Shown: one piece after another, positions 320-27,924 of the stretch | Layout: every line of letters starts with the position of its first letter | How positions within the stretch are numbered: the first letter of the stretch is position 1 | IMG/VR virus record: IMGVR_UViG_3300036985_005042 | Coordinates: 1 to 30,063 of that record | Origin: a virus | Reading direction: 5' to 3' (one strand) | Length of the DNA stretch: 30,063 bases | Notes under the pieces: generated by a model | The model's database searches: none | What the model was told of the DNA's origin: nothing | The model's input: only the letters and a program-made list of their open reading frames with translations | Made by a program: the position numbers and the translations under genes

Positions 320-1024
320 TTATTGCTCCTTGTTTGAAAGTTGTTTTACAGTTCTATTTTTTTCTCTAAGGTCATCACCTGACATTGTAATTATTATACC
401 GCTTGAAATCCTGCTAAATAATCGTTCACTTTGCCGCTCTTTAATTTCGATAGATGTCAAATTCGTTGTGATAATTGTTGGTTTCATATCCATGTATCGG
501 CTGTTTATAACCTGATAAAGAGAAGAAAGCGCGTACTCACTCGATTTCTCAGTTCCTATGTCATCAATGCAAAGTATTTTTACAGCCTTCCATTTCAACA
601 AAAGCGAACTTTCGGTTTCTGTTCCATCATCAAACGACCCTCGAAGTTGTTGCATCATATCAACGGCACAAACAAACAAACCGTATTCACCATTGATTTT
701 GAACCACTCTCTAAGCATAGCAACAGCCAAGTGTGTTTTACCAGTACCTGCTTTAACCCCTGTTATTAGCGCGAACTCTCCACTTTTAGACACTATCCAA
801 CCATTAGCCATAGAAACAGCCTCAGAAGTATTAAAGTCGCTCAAACAGGCAGTTTTGTACCTTTCTCGGATACCGTTAGCAAACGATGGTGGCAACACTA
901 GTTTAACCGATCCGCTTTCGCATGATTCACATTTGGTTTCATTGATGTATGCAGTAACACACATTAATTCAACACCACAAACGCAACAACTCCCCATTTG
1001 CATATTGTACGATTCAGAACCCAT
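320..1024 (-). CDS. DnaC-type AAA+ replicative helicase loader
   Basis: This 234-residue protein has the layout of phage and bacterial DnaC/DnaI helicase loaders, which bring the host replicative helicase onto phage DNA. Residues 13-35 carry cysteine pairs (CCVC and CESC) that look like a small zinc-binding region. Walker A is GVKAGTGKTHL at about 89-99, Walker B is ILCIDDIG at 150-157, sensor 1 is TTN at 186-188, and RLFSRI at 201-206 fits the arginine-finger region. The start overlaps the end of the upstream replication initiator gene by 11 bases, so the two are probably translated together. The ribosome binding site is weak, which fits translational coupling. IstB-type transposition ATPases share this fold, but the neighbour argues for phage replication. 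Confidence 0.88.
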   Translation of the reverse strand: MGSESYNMQMGSCCVCGVELMCVTAYINETKCESCESGSVKLVLPPSFANGIRERYKTACLSDFNTSEAVSMANGWIVSKSGEFALITGVKAGTGKTHLAVAMLREWFKINGEYGLFVCAVDMMQQLRGSFDDGTETESSLLLKWKAVKILCIDDIGTEKSSEYALSSLYQVINSRYMDMKPTIITTNLTSIEIKERQSERLFSRISSGIIITMSGDDLREKNRTVKQLSNKEQ

Positions 1025-1766
1025 TTTCTTCTACAGCCTTCCTATTACGGTCTTCGGAGTAATCAACAGATTTTTCGTCAAGCCACCTTTTACCGTTTAT
1101 GTAAGTTGATGGCATAGGAATGTATTGCCCTTTTTCTTTTGTCCATGATTCTTGCTTGCATTGCCATTCAAGAGCTTTTAGAATTAGCGTTACAACTAAA
1201 TGTTTCTCAGTTACCCTTGACCAAGCTTTTTCTGCTGTACCTCGTGAACTCTTTTTCGGGTAGTGCTTATACCACATATCAAAAGTTTCATCTTGCTGTT
1301 TTGGTTTTGTTTCCTTCTTACACTCTTCTTTCTTATCTTTTAATACAGATACAGATTCAGATTCAGATTCAGAGTGTGAACTCACTGTGAACTCACAGTG
1401 ATTCACAGTTGACTTATTTTCTCTGTAATCCCTCATATAAATTCTGTGCTTTTCCCTTTTCGTATCATCATGCAACCTATATTTGTCGTTGTTTAGTATA
1501 ATCCAACCGCCATTTACTTTTTCAACTCTTCTGCCTTCATTATCAGGGGTTCTACTATCAAAGTCGGGAGACTCTAAAGAGTTTATGGCAGTATCAAATT
1601 CTTCTTTGGTAATATTCGCAGCTCTTTGTAACCCTTGTCTAGATGTTGCAACAAATCCGTATTCATCTTTTAGTGCAAGCATTGTAATCCATAAAACTCT
1701 CGTAGATAATGGTTCGAACCAAATTGAACTCATAACTATACCACTATCAAGTTTTGCAAATGGCAT
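1014..1766 (-). CDS. phage replication initiator / replisome organiser
   Basis: The 250-residue product starts MPFAKLDSGIVMSSIW. That ATG has AGGTGA six bases upstream; an ATG ten codons earlier lies inside a hairpin and has no such site. The first 90 residues look like the winged-helix N-terminal domain of phage replisome organisers (LSTRVLWITMLAL, then SRQGLQRAANITKEEF). A KREKHRIYMRDYREN segment and a Ser/Glu-rich linker follow. The C-terminal part (FDMWYKHYPKKSSRGTAEKAW through YIPMPSTYINGKRWLDE) is typical of phage O-like and primosomal proteins. It lies directly upstream of the helicase loader, the classic initiator-loader pair. The replication origin may lie in or near this gene, but no clear iteron set is visible inside it. 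Confidence 0.82.
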   Translation of the reverse strand: MPFAKLDSGIVMSSIWFEPLSTRVLWITMLALKDEYGFVATSRQGLQRAANITKEEFDTAINSLESPDFDSRTPDNEGRRVEKVNGGWIILNNDKYRLHDDTKREKHRIYMRDYRENKSTVNHCEFTVSSHSESESESVSVLKDKKEECKKETKPKQQDETFDMWYKHYPKKSSRGTAEKAWSRVTEKHLVVTLILKALEWQCKQESWTKEKGQYIPMPSTYINGKRWLDEKSVDYSEDRNRKAVEENGF

Positions 1767-1791
1767 AAAATCACCTAATAAGGAAAGCCCT

Positions 1792-1887
1792 CCCATCTAA
1801 AGTGCGTGACATACTTTAGATGGGTTACTTTTTACAGTTAATGCCACAAGGAGCATTTGGGCGAAATTTCAACTTGAGTTGTCACGC
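1792..1887 (-). promoter_or_regulatory. hairpin with loop-complementary sequence upstream of the replication initiator
   Basis: The non-coding stretch 1767-1910 contains a perfect 12-bp inverted repeat, CCCATCTAAAGT at 1792-1803 against ACTTTAGATGGG at 1813-1824, with a 9-base loop. Seven of the loop bases (GCGTGAC, 1804-1810) are exactly complementary to GTCACGC at 1881-1887. On the leftward mRNA this could form a pseudoknot a few bases before the initiator's ribosome binding site. Read as DNA, the arms are centred 21 bp apart, about two helix turns, so a dimeric operator is the alternative. There is no U-tract on the leftward strand, so it is not a standard terminator. Confidence 0.55.
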
Positions 1888-1910
1888 TCGTACAGTAAAT
1901 ATAATTCATG

Positions 1911-3450: not shown

Positions 3451-3642
3451 TTTTATTTTATTTTTCGTGTAAATAAAACCAGCCTCTATCAGTTCGATAG
3501 TTTGTTGTGTCATTCGGTAATTACATTTCAATTTATCTATCACCACTTTTTCAAGTACGCCAAGCAAGGCTAAATCTTCGATCAGTCGCGCGCACGTGGT
3601 TAGCGGCGCGTGGTTGTGTGTTATACGGTAGCTACTTGCTAC
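3448..3642 (-). pseudogene. possible gene remnant without a start codon
   Basis: An open frame of about 64 codons runs leftward to a TAA at 3448-3450. Its last 45 codons read like real protein (RLIEDLALLGVLEKVVIDKL, later MTQQTIELIEAGFIYTK). The frame is closed by a TAG just before codon 1, and no ATG or ribosome binding site is present until the late MTQQ. It may be the 3' end of a gene cut when the GC-rich island was inserted, or a short gene with an unusual start. Family unknown. Confidence 0.3.
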
Positions 3643-3682
3643 CTATAGAAATTAACTCGGAAATGTTGATTACATTTCCCCA

Positions 3683-3734
3683 CTCAAGCCTGAGCAGTCA
3701 CCGCTCAAACTGGAGCAGTCACCGCGCAAGCCGG
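3683..3734. repeat. two and a half copies of a 21-bp direct repeat
   Basis: Units at 3683-3703 and 3704-3724 match at 18 of 21 positions and share the core GAGCAGTCACCG. A partial third unit (CGCAAGCCGG) follows at 3725-3734. The 21-bp period equals two helix turns, as in iterons or repressor arrays. The gene-free stretch 3377-3906 otherwise holds only the promoter element, the gene remnant and the inverted repeat described separately. Confidence 0.7.
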
Positions 3735-3861
3735 CTGGCGTAGAATTCACCGCCCTGCTTTAAGGGATTAAGACTCAAGAACTGTGCCGCTATTTGTATG
3801 TTGCATGCGACACCGTTACAAGCACCCTGAATTATCGGACATGTTGAATGTTTGAGCGGTG
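3699..3861. repeat. 12-bp inverted repeat flanking 139 bp
   Basis: CACCGCTCAAAC at 3699-3710 is perfectly inverted as GTTTGAGCGGTG at 3850-3861. The left arm overlaps the 21-bp repeat array. The enclosed sequence has no convincing gene. The arms could be recombination or protein-binding sites, or ends of a small mobile element, but no target duplication was seen. Confidence 0.5.
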
Positions 3862-4876: not shown

Positions 4877-4926
4877 ACCCCACAAGCCTCTTTAGTTTTT
4901 TAAACTAAATGCTCAAATCGTGGGGT
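4877..4926 (+). promoter_or_regulatory. nested RNA hairpin at the 5' end of the late transcript
   Basis: ACCCCAC (4877-4883) pairs with GTGGGGT (4920-4926), and inside it TTTAGTTT (4891-4898) pairs perfectly with AAACTAAA (4902-4909) around a 3-base loop. AGC/GCT can extend the arm. The structure begins about six bases after the expected transcription start and ends 36 bases before the first late gene. No U-tract follows, so it is not a plain terminator. Its place is like that of phage antitermination or leader RNAs (the put sites of HK022 are a known example), but the sequence itself is not recognised. Confidence 0.5.
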
Positions 4927-16454: not shown

Positions 16455-18371
16455 ATGGCTGAAAATACCGATATAGTTAGACTAAGGTTAGAACTTGAAG
16501 ACGTTCTATCTTCGAAGTTTAAAAAAGCTACTGAGGATATTAAGAAATCTCTTTCCGATACCAAGCAAAAGGTAAGTGAGAATAAGTCTGCGTTTAGTGG
16601 TCTTGCCGATGAATGGCGCGGCGGGTTTTCAAGTGCATTAAGCGGTGCGGTAAAAGGGTTTATCGGCTTCCAAGTTGTAAGCAAAACCACCCAATTTTTA
16701 ATGGATGCACGCAGAGAGTACAAAGACGCCGCGCAAGGGCTTTTGCAGCTTAAAACAGCCTTAAACGGTAGCACCGTTGCTCTCGAAGAGCAAGCAAAAG
16801 CACTTAGTAAAAAGCTTGTAATTGATGACGATGACATTATCTCTATGCAAGCGCAACTTGCTATGTACATCAAAAACGGCGATCAAATAAAGAAGCTAAC
16901 GCCCGCCGTTATTGACCTTGCAAAAGCCAAAGGTATGAATTTATCGCAAGCGGCTGGTTTGGTTGCTCGTGGAATTGCCGACGATAGCGAAGAGCTGGGG
17001 AGATTAAAAATATCGGTTGAAGGTGCGAAGGGTAGTATGGAGCGTATTGACTCTGTTGTAAGAGGGTTGACTGCAAACTTCGGAGGTCAAGCGGAGGCAA
17101 TAGCGGCAACGACAGACGCTATTGATAGAGGAGGTTTGTCGTGGAAAAATTTTAGTGAACAGATTGGCGAAGTGATGCACCAAGTATTTGGTGGTAGAGT
17201 TTCTAAAGAAGTGACCCCATTAGGCAGAGCAACACAAGATTTAGAAATATATACAAAACAACTCGTAAAAGCACAAGAACAAGCGAAAAAACAAGACCCT
17301 ACAGGGTCAATGTTTTTCCCCGAAGTTAATGCGTTGCAAGTTAAGGTACAAGAAACGCAAAAAATCGTTGATGAATTTAACGCAAAAAAAGCGGCTTCTG
17401 ATAAAGCTTATAATGATAAAATTGCAAGTGATGCAAAAGCTTCTGCTATAAAAGCAGAGGAAGAAATTTCTAAAGAAAGAAAATCAATACAAGATAAAGC
17501 AAGAGACGAACACGTAAGAGCTCAAACAGAACAAATTGAAACGACATCAAGAATTGCATCGGCTAATGTTGATTTATATATGGAAGGCTACGACGCACAA
17601 CTTGCGAACGAGGCAATATTTTATGACAAAGAATTACAACTTGCTAAATTGAACAAGCAAAATTTAGAAGTGGTTACAATCGAACATAATGCAAGAATGA
17701 AACAGATACAAGATGAAGAAGCTTTAAAAGTAAAAGATTACGAAGAAAAGAAGCAAAAAGAGCGAGATGAATATACCAAAAATCTGCAAACTATCCAAAT
17801 TACTATGCAGAACGAACTCGATGCAAGCAGTAAGCAAAGTTTTGACGCATGGGTAAAGCAAGAAAAAGAAAAGGCGAAAATAGCAAGTGATAATAGACGA
17901 AACGAAGTAGCAAACGGTATTTCTTCAGCGGGTCAATTGTTTAGTGCAATTGCCGATTCAAACAAGCGCACAGCTAACGAGAAAAAAAATATAGCACGTG
18001 TTGAAGCTGGCATCAACACAGCCGTTGCGGTAACGAAAGCGTTGCCTGATCCGTTTGCCGTAGCGTTTGCGCTTGCTATGGGGATAGCCCAACAGGTGGC
18101 AATCTCTAACGCTAAATTTGCTACAGGGACACCATACGCAAGCGGTGGCACTGCTTTAGTTGGCGAACGCGGTCAAGAGCTTATAGATTTGCCACGAGGG
18201 GCAACGGTTCGAAATAACTACGAGACACGTAATAGCTATGGTGGCAATACTGTCGTGTTAAATGTAACCGATAATAGCGGCAATTTAATCGACACTTTTA
18301 CGCGACAAATAAAACGCGGTGACGCCGACAGCATGGTGCAGGAGTTACTTGCACGGGCTGGTGCAATGTGA
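16455..18371 (+). CDS. tape measure protein
   Basis: The 638-residue product begins MAENTDIVRLRLELEDVLSS and is dominated by long helices. A conserved-type region (KKLTPAVIDLAKAKGMNLSQ, ISVEGAKGSM) lies at about 155-200, and a long coiled coil at about 270-480 (EEISKERKSIQDKARDEHVR, EDYEEKKQKERDEYTK-like). A hydrophobic stretch lies near 520-555 (LPDPFAVAFALAMGIAQQVA). The C-terminus has GTALVGERGQELIDLPRGA, a motif typical of tape measure ends. At the usual 0.15 nm per residue the tail would be near 95 nm. The gene overlaps the next one by GTGA. Confidence 0.9.
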   Translation: MAENTDIVRLRLELEDVLSSKFKKATEDIKKSLSDTKQKVSENKSAFSGLADEWRGGFSSALSGAVKGFIGFQVVSKTTQFLMDARREYKDAAQGLLQLKTALNGSTVALEEQAKALSKKLVIDDDDIISMQAQLAMYIKNGDQIKKLTPAVIDLAKAKGMNLSQAAGLVARGIADDSEELGRLKISVEGAKGSMERIDSVVRGLTANFGGQAEAIAATTDAIDRGGLSWKNFSEQIGEVMHQVFGGRVSKEVTPLGRATQDLEIYTKQLVKAQEQAKKQDPTGSMFFPEVNALQVKVQETQKIVDEFNAKKAASDKAYNDKIASDAKASAIKAEEEISKERKSIQDKARDEHVRAQTEQIETTSRIASANVDLYMEGYDAQLANEAIFYDKELQLAKLNKQNLEVVTIEHNARMKQIQDEEALKVKDYEEKKQKERDEYTKNLQTIQITMQNELDASSKQSFDAWVKQEKEKAKIASDNRRNEVANGISSAGQLFSAIADSNKRTANEKKNIARVEAGINTAVAVTKALPDPFAVAFALAMGIAQQVAISNAKFATGTPYASGGTALVGERGQELIDLPRGATVRNNYETRNSYGGNTVVLNVTDNSGNLIDTFTRQIKRGDADSMVQELLARAGAM

Positions 18372-25222: not shown

Positions 25223-25822
25223 ATGAAGATATTAATAATAGACGACGACATTCAAAAAGCGAATTTGCTTTCAGAGCGAATAAGCGAACATGAAATATCT
25301 ATCGAGACTGATCCATTTAAGGCGGTTAGCAAAATAAGAAACAGATACGATGCCGTTTTGTGTGATGTGTTTTTTGATGCTAAAGAGCAGGGTGGAAAAA
25401 TCCTTGACATGTTTATATCTGCAAAAAGTTGCCGGCTGCCAGTTTTGTACAGTGCAGCAAAAGAAGCTATTATAAACAAGCCTGTAGAAAGTGCAGCCTA
25501 CGACTTCAATGATTTAATAGAAAAATTGCCGATGCTTTTACGCAACTTGGGGGAAGAACAGTACGAGGAACAACCAAGTAATAACAATGGTAAAATATTT
25601 GGTCGTAGGGAATCAGATAGCAAGCCTCAATACAACAAAGATTTGTGTGATTTACGCCATGTTGAGGAGTTAAAATCAATCGAAAAAATAGAAACTAATC
25701 ATGACAAATTAAGTCTTGAGGTAAAAAACCTTAAAGACGCGACGAACAACAAATTTCTATCGCTTGCAGTAGCTTTAATTATGTTACTAATAGGGATTAT
25801 AACTAAACAATACATCCATTAA
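25223..25822 (+). CDS. receiver-like domain fused to coiled coil and C-terminal membrane anchor
   Basis: Residues 1-90 of this 199-residue protein look like a response-regulator receiver: KILIIDDDI with the acidic pair at Asp7-Asp9, YDAVLCDVFFD with phospho-acceptor Asp48, LPVLYSA with Ser77, and NKPV with Lys86-Pro87. The gap from Ser77 to Lys86 is only nine residues, shorter than in full receivers, so one helix/strand unit is reduced. A charged linker (105-140), a coiled coil (HVEELKSIEKIETNHDKLSL) and one membrane helix (about 176-194, LAVALIMLLIGII) follow. The coiled coil plus anchor resembles XhlA-type lysis proteins. It starts one base after the previous stop and precedes the holin. 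Phosphorylation is unproven. Confidence 0.6.
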   Translation: MKILIIDDDIQKANLLSERISEHEISIETDPFKAVSKIRNRYDAVLCDVFFDAKEQGGKILDMFISAKSCRLPVLYSAAKEAIINKPVESAAYDFNDLIEKLPMLLRNLGEEQYEEQPSNNNGKIFGRRESDSKPQYNKDLCDLRHVEELKSIEKIETNHDKLSLEVKNLKDATNNKFLSLAVALIMLLIGIITKQYIH

Positions 25823-26204: not shown

Positions 26205-26234
26205 TTGCACACTTGGTAAAAAATGTAGTATATT
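26205..26234 (+). promoter_or_regulatory. sigma70-type promoter for the structured RNA
   Basis: TTGCAC at 26205-26210 and TATATT at 26229-26234 are 18 bp apart. The expected start is at about 26240-26242, exactly where the long-range stem of the RNA begins. It could also supply an independent transcript for the lysis genes if the terminator is read through. Confidence 0.6.
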
Positions 26235-26239
26235 ACTGC

Positions 26240-26343
26240 AGAGCTTAGGAACTCACTAAACAAAAATTGCCCGCTTATGTACTCCCGTGCGTAAGTTTAA
26301 CCCGAATACGAACCCTAAGCTCTAGTTCGGGTTTGGGCTTTTT
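26240..26343 (+). ncRNA. candidate structured RNA, about 104 nt, between holin and endolysin operon
   Basis: The 202-base gap 26160-26361 holds no gene but is dense in structure. P1: AGAGCTTAGG (26240-26249) pairs perfectly with CCTAAGCTCT (26314-26323). P2: CTTATGTAC (26274-26282) pairs with GTGCGTAAG (26287-26295) with two GU pairs and loop TCCC. P3: AACCCGAA (26299-26306) pairs perfectly with TTCGGGTT (26326-26333). P1 and P3 cross, so they form a pseudoknot or are alternatives. The 2-base link between P1 and P3 makes a stacked H-type form difficult, so switching is favoured. A T5 tract ends the unit. It may be an independent small RNA or a cis-acting leader for 26362. I match it to no known family. 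Confidence 0.65.
26299..26343 (+). terminator. intrinsic terminator of the structured RNA
   Basis: AACCCGAA/TTCGGGTT forms an 8-bp stem around a 19-base loop, followed by TGGGC and TTTTTAATTTT. Five bases lie between stem and T-run, so pairing of GGGC (26335-26338) with GCCC (26269-26272) or a shift to the second AACCC (26311-26315) may form the final hairpin. It lies 18 bases before the next gene, a layout seen in attenuators. Confidence 0.6.
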
Positions 26344-26361
26344 AATTTTAAAGGGGGTTTT

Positions 26362-26898
26362 ATGCAATATCGTGAGATGATTAAAAATGTCGATGTGATT
26401 CGAGAAGGGGACGAGTACAACCAAAATGGTACATGGGTAAAGTTCGAATTATCTATTGGCGAGGTACTTTCAGAGATTGCCGATTCTCGCCGACCTCTGC
26501 CCGACTTGGCGTCTTTGCCGGTTGGTAAAATTGTTTGGCATGAGCCGGTGTTAATTAAATCTAATGGATATGTTTTTAAAGCTGCTTATGTGACAAGCGG
26601 TGGAGAGATATTTGGATTGAACAAAGACGGTCATTCTCGTAGTTGTTACAACTATCAAGCTGTGCATTATAACGCAATGCCCGAAGAACCTGAGCAGCAA
26701 AAAACGAAAATGGTTGATCTAACCGATCTCGAAATTATCGAGGCGTTGAAGCAAAATGGTTGTGTTTTGAAACATACCCTTGGGGCGTTACATGGGTGTT
26801 GGACTTCTACTATGCAAAAACAAAACTATAAAATCTGCTACAACCATTTTGCCGATCCACAGGTTTGGCAAGAGTTGAAGAAAGAGGTGCCGGTATGA
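26362..26898 (+). CDS. 178-residue unknown protein downstream of the structured RNA
   Basis: The ATG follows AAAGGGGG by six bases. The first half is beta-rich (KIVWHEPVLIKSNGYVFKAA, YVTSGGEIFGLNKDG). The second half has a helical segment (LTDLEIIEALKQNGCVLKHT) then HGCWTSTMQKQNYKICYN and ends WQELKKEVPV. There is no signal peptide or membrane segment. It is the first gene after the RNA and overlaps the endolysin start (ATGA), so its expression may depend on the RNA. Family not recognised. Confidence 0.65.
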   Translation: MQYREMIKNVDVIREGDEYNQNGTWVKFELSIGEVLSEIADSRRPLPDLASLPVGKIVWHEPVLIKSNGYVFKAAYVTSGGEIFGLNKDGHSRSCYNYQAVHYNAMPEEPEQQKTKMVDLTDLEIIEALKQNGCVLKHTLGALHGCWTSTMQKQNYKICYNHFADPQVWQELKKEVPV

Positions 26899-27380
26899 GC
26901 TTGCTATATCCAAAATACGCACAATTAAAACTCGGTGTCCCTACATCTCCAAAGCCAACAGATTGTTTATTCATCGACGTTCCCGAGGAATTGCGCGATC
27001 ATTTTCCAAAACGTATTTACGTAGGAAGATGTATTGCAACACCGCTTGCTAATGCTCTTGCGGCAATTGCGTCTCGCCGGCTTCACGATCTAATTGAGAC
27101 GTGGGACGGATGCTATAACGTTCGTAAGGCTAGAAAAAATAGCCTCGATTGGTCTCTTCACTCTTGGGGTGTGGCGGTTGATTTTAACCAAGTTAATAAC
27201 CCTCAAGGTATTATTCCTGATATTAAAGTTAGGATTAACAAAAAACTTGTAGAGTGTTTTACAGATAATGGATTTGAATGGGGTGGTGATTGGCATTTGC
27301 CAAGTACTGATTGTATGCACTTTCAACTTTCAAAAGAGACTTTTGACAAACAGTATGAGCGTTTTTACGAGGTGAAATAA
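26895..27380 (+). CDS. M15-family peptidase endolysin
   Basis: The ATG at 26895 overlaps the previous stop, with GAGGTG upstream; the protein has 161 residues. The zinc site of D-Ala-D-Ala/L-Ala-D-Glu peptidases is visible: SLHSWGVAVDFN gives His89 and Asp96, and DCMHFQL gives Asp139 and His142, with the conserved FEWGGDWH before it. It cuts peptide links in peptidoglycan. With no signal peptide it needs the holin to reach the wall. No separate wall-binding domain is present. Its stop overlaps the next start (TAATG). Confidence 0.85.
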   Translation: MSLLYPKYAQLKLGVPTSPKPTDCLFIDVPEELRDHFPKRIYVGRCIATPLANALAAIASRRLHDLIETWDGCYNVRKARKNSLDWSLHSWGVAVDFNQVNNPQGIIPDIKVRINKKLVECFTDNGFEWGGDWHLPSTDCMHFQLSKETFDKQYERFYEVK

Positions 27381-27559
27381 TGCCACTAACCTACGACGAA
27401 GCCGCCGATTTGATGCCTGAGTTTATTACGAGTTGTAAGTATTTTCGAGATGTAACAGTGCCAAAAGTAGCTTACGGGTGTGCCTTTGGTCAATCCGAAA
27501 AAGTGGCTAACCATATTTTTTCATGCCGAAACTGTCCGCTTGGAAGGAATGGTGAGTGA
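27380..27559 (+). CDS. 59-residue cysteine-containing protein
   Basis: It starts in a TAATG overlap with the endolysin, with GAGGTGA ahead of it, and ends overlapping the HNH gene. The sequence starts MPLTYDEAADLMPEFITSCK, then has VAYGCAFG and ends FSCRNCPLGRNGE. Four cysteines, two as CRNC, could bind zinc. Function unknown, but precise overlaps on both sides argue for a real gene. Confidence 0.6.
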   Translation: MPLTYDEAADLMPEFITSCKYFRDVTVPKVAYGCAFGQSEKVANHIFSCRNCPLGRNGE

Positions 27560-27924
27560 TGAAAATTGACCGTGTAAAAGTTTACCAAAAATGCAATGGT
27601 CATTGCGCTTATTGTGGTTGCGAAATAACGATTAAGCAAATGCAAATAGACCATGTATTCCCTCAATTGCTCTCACATCACGAACCTGAGTTTGATAAAA
27701 ATAGATTCGCAAATTTAATGCCTTCTTGTCACAAATGCAATAACCACAAAGGTGGAATGAAGTTAGAGTTTTGGAGAAGTGAACTACAACGTCAAGTTAA
27801 AATGTTACATAACAATAGTCAATTTATGAGAGCTTTAAGATATGGTCAAATTGCAATTACAGAAACACCGATAGTTTTTTATTTTGAAAAACCACCACTT
27901 GACAAAGGAGAAAAACTAACATGA
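27559..27924 (+). CDS. HNH endonuclease
   Basis: Of two possible starts I chose the ATG at 27559 after GGTGAG, giving 121 residues. The HNH core is clear: GHCAYCG zinc pair, then IDHVFP with the catalytic His after Asp, NLMPSCHKCNNHKGG with Asn and the second CxxC. A helical C-terminal part follows. It may be a free-standing homing-type nuclease or assist packaging and DNA processing. It lies far from terminase, with the lysis genes, which fits a mobile HNH gene. It overlaps the next gene by ATGA. Confidence 0.85.
   Translation: MKIDRVKVYQKCNGHCAYCGCEITIKQMQIDHVFPQLLSHHEPEFDKNRFANLMPSCHKCNNHKGGMKLEFWRSELQRQVKMLHNNSQFMRALRYGQIAITETPIVFYFEKPPLDKGEKLT

Follow-up and report, generated by a model that had tools for sequence, protein, structure and literature searches.

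The late leader of phage lambda, which runs from pR' to tR' (the 6S RNA, antiterminated by Q), consists of a promoter, a leader of 100-200 nt and an intrinsic terminator, followed by the lysis genes. In phage HK022, two structured RNAs, the put sites, head two operons; they are adjacent stem-loops, conserved in sequence, and lead polymerase to read past terminators. Small operon-head RNAs with internal complementarity are also found in satellite phage P4 (CI RNA) and phage P1 (C4 RNA). Structured RNAs act against toxins as well: RCd22, an abiF-motif RNA, acts in trans to neutralise its toxin (PMC12373285), and a pseudo-ToxI is found in phage PhiTE (PMC3475682). Like the virus described here, cyanophage S-CREM1 carries an abiF RNA (PMC9964418).

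Here we describe a predicted pseudoknotted RNA, about 105 nt long, that occurs twice in one virus record and once in a related virus, each time at the head of an operon. Taken one by one, the stems prove to be within chance level; judged by its stems only, the initial annotation's case would be weak. The recurrence of the same knot before lysis and replication genes, and in another virus, suggests an undescribed family of regulatory RNAs.

Results

The virus record and its genes

Our window, the whole stretch of DNA that was analysed, comprises positions 1-30,063 of record IMGVR_UViG_3300036985_005042 and is virus DNA without end repeats. The minus strand carries genes for a DnaC-like loader and a replication initiator; the plus strand carries methyltransferase, terminase, portal, capsid and other genes, and then those for a small holin-like protein and the endolysin. 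The terminase finds its best match among named phages in Bacteroidota phages (42%), which alone is insufficient for assigning a Bacteroidota host, since ribosome-binding sites are common in the record. The 178-aa protein encoded directly upstream of the endolysin has no Pfam, PHROG or PADLOC match. The upstream neighbour of the lysis genes (25223-25822, plus strand) encodes a protein with the receiver-like start of a response regulator (MKILIIDDDIQKANLL...) and a hydrophobic C-terminal stretch, which found no match in a PHROG search. An HNH endonuclease (phrog_2118; 27556-27924, plus strand) lies within the lysis operon, and copy C (see below) adjoins an HNH-like gene in the other phage. Positions 3600-3740 are intergenic, GC-rich (the rest of the record is 39% GC) and strongly folding, with a repeated GAGCAGTCACCG, and are possibly an origin region.

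A predicted RNA with crossing stems before the lysis genes

Between the holin-like gene and the gene for the 178-aa protein, the initial annotation had placed a promoter-driven structured RNA with crossing stems (copy A; Table 1). Its promoter-like hexamers, TTGCAC and TATATT at 18-nt spacing, are present and score weakly in a consensus scan (9/12, in a neighbouring register), which returns 37 such sites in the window versus 28 in shuffles. Base by base, we reconfirmed that the 10-bp long-range stem (S1) is perfect, that the 8-bp stem (S2) crosses it and that a T5 tract follows. The 9-bp hairpin at 26274-26295 with its two G-U pairs (P2) likewise holds, and G26273-U26296 extends it by one pair. 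Folding also brought out a fourth, closing helix (P1) that the initial annotation did not list. The end of copy A is flagged by a simple terminator scan, whose site count is at chance level.

Table 1 Features of copies A and B and their neighbouring genes in the window.
Feature	Position	Strand	Remarks
Holin-like membrane protein, 68 aa	25953-26159	+	5' of copy A; by eye, without family match
Copy A, promoter-like hexamers	26205-26210, 26229-26234	+	TTGCAC, 18-nt spacer, TATATT; read from sequence
Copy A, S1 5' strand	26240-26249	+	AGAGCTTAGG; predicted RNA 5' end
Copy A, P1 5' strand	26269-26272	+	GCCC; pairs with GGGC 26335-26338
Copy A, P2 hairpin	26273-26296	+	10 bp, UCCC loop; folding
Copy A, S2 5' strand	26299-26306	+	AACCCGAA; 8 bp with TTCGGGTT
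Copy A, S1 3' strand	26314-26323	+	CCTAAGCTCT; inside S2 loop; perfect complement of AGAGCTTAGG, 10 bp
Copy A, S2 3' strand	26326-26333	+	TTCGGGTT; pairs with AACCCGAA
Copy A, P1 3' strand and T5	26335-26343	+	GGGC, then T5 (26339-26343); terminator-like end; folding
First gene 3' of copy A, 178 aa	26362-26898	+	AAAGGGGG precedes start
Endolysin (Peptidase_M15_4)	26895-27380	+	family search
Copy B, -10-like hexamer	1898-1903	-	TATATT, without good -35
Copy B, S1 5' strand	1880-1887	-	GCGTGACA
Copy B, P1 5' strand	1859-1862	-	GCCC
Copy B, P2 hairpin	1840-1857	-	AATGCT/GGCATT, CUCC at loop
Copy B, S2 hairpin	1792-1824	-	12 bp; 9-nt loop holding S1 3' strand TGTCACGC (1811-1804)
Copy B, P1 3' strand and T-rich tract	1784-1790	-	GGGC, then short tract (TTTCC)
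Replication initiation protein	1014-1766	-	immediately 3' of copy B; ATG 1766 after AGGTG

The anatomy recurs ahead of replication genes

A list of crossing stems in the same record contained a pair at 1792-1824 / 1804-1887 that is not AT-rich and was chosen by structure only. This pair belongs to copy B (minus strand, 1887-1785), a second occurrence of the full anatomy of copy A that had been missed in the initial annotation. The elements on the minus strand run TATATT, S1, GCCC, P2, S2 hairpin, GGGC, TTTCC and AGGTGATTTTATG, the last of which is likely the start of the replication initiator. Copies A and B thus have a common element order that includes the GCCC/GGGC closing helix; the weak points of copy B are its poor -35 and its weak T tract. 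Read at its longest, the replication initiator would begin at an in-frame ATG (1796) that falls within S2 of copy B (stem strand 1792-1803, minus strand); we regard ATG 1766 as the likelier start. The DNA upstream of the two copies aligns with a score that one other, unrelated tile exceeds among ~1500 tiles; as stand-alone evidence this similarity is not significant, ranking second in the window, with other phages scoring higher.

We searched 1.1 Mb of fetched phage DNA with a descriptor made up only of a 5' strand, a hairpin and a T-rich tail. The top rank went to a site in another phage (L089, minus strand, 8118-8020), followed by copy B and copy A. This third copy, copy C, spans 8118-8004 on the minus strand of L089, which belongs to a virus record of 48.9 kb; the terminase there is ~50% identical to that of our phage. 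Its S1 has 11 bp, its S2 10 bp and its P2 7 bp; P1 is formed by CCC-AA-GGC with GCC-AA-GGG and is followed by T7. Six bases after the T7 stands the ATG of an HNH-like gene, and next comes a Lin1244_N protein (replication operon). The P2 loop reads CUCU in copy C versus CUCC in copies A and B, and copy C has no sequence that can be aligned with either; it may be related to them by descent, and convergence is possible. All three copies are intergenic, with the T-rich tract ending 6-18 nt 5' of the operon's first ATG. The GC-rich stem and T tract before the gene read GGGC-T5 in copy A, GGG-T7 in copy C and, weakly, GGGC-TTTCC in copy B. The structured RNA with crossing stems proposed for the lysis operon is supported as such and is not specific to lysis, given that copies B and C precede replication operons.

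Recurrence, not single stems, exceeds chance

Taken singly, the stems of copy A are within chance for a 30-kb window. The window holds 5 pairs of perfect 10-bp arms within 84 nt versus ~2 expected from shuffles. Of 300 shuffled windows, 49 contain crossing 8- and 10-bp stems, as do only 19 of 20,000 shuffles of the copy A stretch. The nested folds of copies A, B and C have z-scores against shuffles of -3.1, -3.2 and -3.9, and about 25 of the 1499 window tiles equal or better the value of copy A.

The signal above chance is the recurrence of the full anatomy. Over 1.34 Mb, a full descriptor matched copies A, C and B only (scores 32, 31 and 30; next 24 under looser settings), a margin that is partly tuned, the descriptor having been made after all three copies had been seen. 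In controls, 30 first-order Markov replicates of 1.1 Mb gave 9 matches with a top score of 27, 42 second-order Markov replicates of 1.34 Mb gave 18 matches (top 27), and the reversed sequence gave 2 (top 26). A further candidate in record L103 (8634; score 32 with a looser descriptor) has an S1 of 7 bp that is not flush with the S2 loop and fails the full descriptor.

The crossing stems could form together

The initial annotation had argued that a 2-base link hinders stacking and had proposed two alternating folds. By known loop geometry, however, a hairpin loop that keeps its 3' side stacked should be able to pair with a strand from elsewhere. Between the S1 3' strand and the S2 stem, the gap on the 3' side of the loop measures 2, 0 and 1 nt in copies A, B and C, and that on the 5' side 7, 1 and 4 nt. 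Because of this flush 3'-side placement and the loop geometry, the 2-base link should be no obstacle to the joint stems. By a rough rule-of-thumb sum, which is not a proper pseudoknot model, the knotted folds come to -38, -36 and -43 kcal/mol against -31.5, -31.8 and -37.4 kcal/mol for the best nested folds, placing the knot ~4-7 kcal/mol lower in each copy. Gaps and energies thus favour a simultaneous knot over alternation: by this modelling, S1 and S2 can form together as a pseudoknot rather than as two exclusive folds. A switch driven by another molecule is conceivable. In predicted folds of the growing copy A transcript, S1 has appeared by a length of 85 nt; S2 and P1 join it by 100 nt, when the T tract is being synthesised.

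Among the three copies, differences on both sides that keep pairing occur in 8 of 8 columns of S1, 8 of 8 of S2, 5 of 6 of P2 and 2 of 3 of P1; with helix columns aligned by structure and a descriptor that demanded pairing, these counts measure recurrence of a fold and are not a phylogenetic test. Since the copies cannot be aligned by sequence, the compensated columns speak for a recurring fold and do not prove common descent.

Homologues and known families

Sequence searches returned no homologue of copy A, either by blastn against phages and plasmids or by DNA-pattern scans of viral and genome contigs. Relatives reached through the proteins of ORF 24685, ORF 26362 and the endolysin did not carry the element either. 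A single-sequence covariance model of copy A found copy A only. About 80 related records, mostly fragments, contained no further copy, and the stretches fetched around replication-initiator relatives in Pseudomonas and other phages contained no such RNA. A 16-mer match in L087 is coding DNA with no pairing partner and was set aside as chance.

The annotation matched the element to no RNA family, in agreement with a permissive covariance search of Rfam 15, in which copies A, B and C gave chance-level matches only, none reaching the gathering score. Readings as a tRNA-like RNA or a member of a known family found no support, and a limited literature survey of partial coverage turned up no described equivalent. 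By inspection, each of the three loci holds one unit, with no tandem pseudoknot repeats of the type III antitoxin kind. No toxin gene is recognisable directly 3' of the copies, where the 178-aa protein (A), the replication initiator (B) and the HNH-like protein (C) are encoded.

An abiF RNA (RF03085) lies at 4878-4926 on the plus strand (39.3 bits versus a cut-off of 37). It heads the rightward operon and is flanked by a promoter-like TATATT on its 5' side and a T-rich tract on its 3' side. With copies A and B counted in, structured RNAs stand at three operon heads of this phage. The RF03085 model matches this site and not copy A or B. The 30,063-nt record contains no Abi_2 gene, and the orphan abiF RNA might serve the phage as a decoy antitoxin that counters an AbiF toxin of the host.

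Discussion

At the level of sequence, the predicted anatomy, its position and its recurrence with differing stem sequences are established. The reading that we favour, and hold to be somewhat probable, is an operon-head RNA of ~105 nt with its own promoter, an S1-S2 loop knot, a P1-closed terminator and readthrough into the operon. Transcription would start at the RNA's own promoter, with the 5' end near S1. The S1 5' strand would pair with the apical loop of the S2 hairpin, which, closed by P1, would form an intrinsic terminator, with P2 in between. The knot would tie down, and perhaps protect, the 5' end. Because the knot ties this end and the element ends T-rich, most transcripts should stop at the tract as a compact, stable RNA. 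A fraction would read on into lysis genes (copy A) or replication genes (copies B and C), and S1, able to pair while S2 is still being made, may tune how often the terminator acts.

How the RNA acts could be otherwise. It may be a free, trans-acting small RNA whose exposed P2 loop pairs with Shine-Dalgarno sequences, or which binds a protein, its operon-head place being incidental. The promoter-like and terminator-like ends of copy A, the CUCC at the P2 loop of copies A and B and a predicted pairing of the P2 segment with a phage start region at 18368 (-21 kcal/mol) are consistent with this. We nevertheless judge it unlikely: that pairing is the best of 32 sites tried and its start codon is uncertain, the CUCU of copy C leaves no conserved seed, and all three copies adjoin the first gene of an operon. 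More doubtful still is a two-state attenuator in which S1 excludes S2/P1, or the hairpin CCUAAGCUC/GGGUUUGGG, and the choice of whether to terminate or read through falls to a ligand, a protein or an antisense RNA. This hairpin overlaps the S1 3' strand in copy A and adjoins the T tract (-10.7 kcal/mol), and S1 is the first stem to form during transcription. However, this hairpin was noticed in copy A only, without a systematic search of B and C, and the flush S1 3' strand suits co-formation, as the rough energies do.

Decoys come to mind with the abiF RNA that this phage carries without an Abi_2 gene, and with the precedents of trans neutralisation (PMC12373285) and pseudo-ToxI (PMC3475682). 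That copies A-C are themselves RNA decoys or antitoxin mimics against a host abortive-infection toxin seems to us very improbable, as they match neither abiF nor other Rfam families and lack repeats, and family search identified none of the genes that follow them as a toxin. A wider proposal, in which the two pseudoknots and the orphan abiF RNA form a combined attenuator/anti-defence class, both gating transcription and serving as decoys that draw off RNA-binding defence proteins of the host, is improbable too. There is, finally, little to be said for ordinary terminator and promoter DNA with a coincidental crossing stem: each stem is within chance and the copies were known when the descriptor was designed, but the full anatomy recurs with scores above any in the null.

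If confirmed, the favoured operon-head reading would add an undescribed phage RNA family with stems too diverged for sequence search; copies B and C were revealed by structure search only. It would also show how an RNA can have its 5' end tied into its own terminator, a possible means of controlling termination or RNA stability where replication and lysis operons begin.

Compared with the small RNAs of P4 and P1, our element differs in having no antisense target in the window (no complement of at least 11 nt) and no Rfam C4 match. HDV-like ribozymes resemble our element in a 5' strand paired across an enclosed domain and a knotted fold; here, in contrast, the 3' strand of S1 is enclosed by a hairpin loop instead of standing between two hairpins, and no ribozyme model matched. 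ToxI, which is pseudoknotted, and the abiF RNA RCd22 share the arrangement of promoter, structured RNA, terminator and gene, whereas copies A-C lack tandem repeats, a recognisable toxin gene and an Rfam match. Unlike the put stem-loops of HK022, the stems of copies A-C vary in sequence, cross each other and end in a terminator-like tract. With the lambda late leader, copy A has in common a promoter, a leader, a terminator-like end and lysis genes. We know of no pseudoknot of this kind in the pR'-tR' leader. The phage also differs from lambda in that no Q-like gene was recognised, and in that the same type of leader here heads the replication operon as well.
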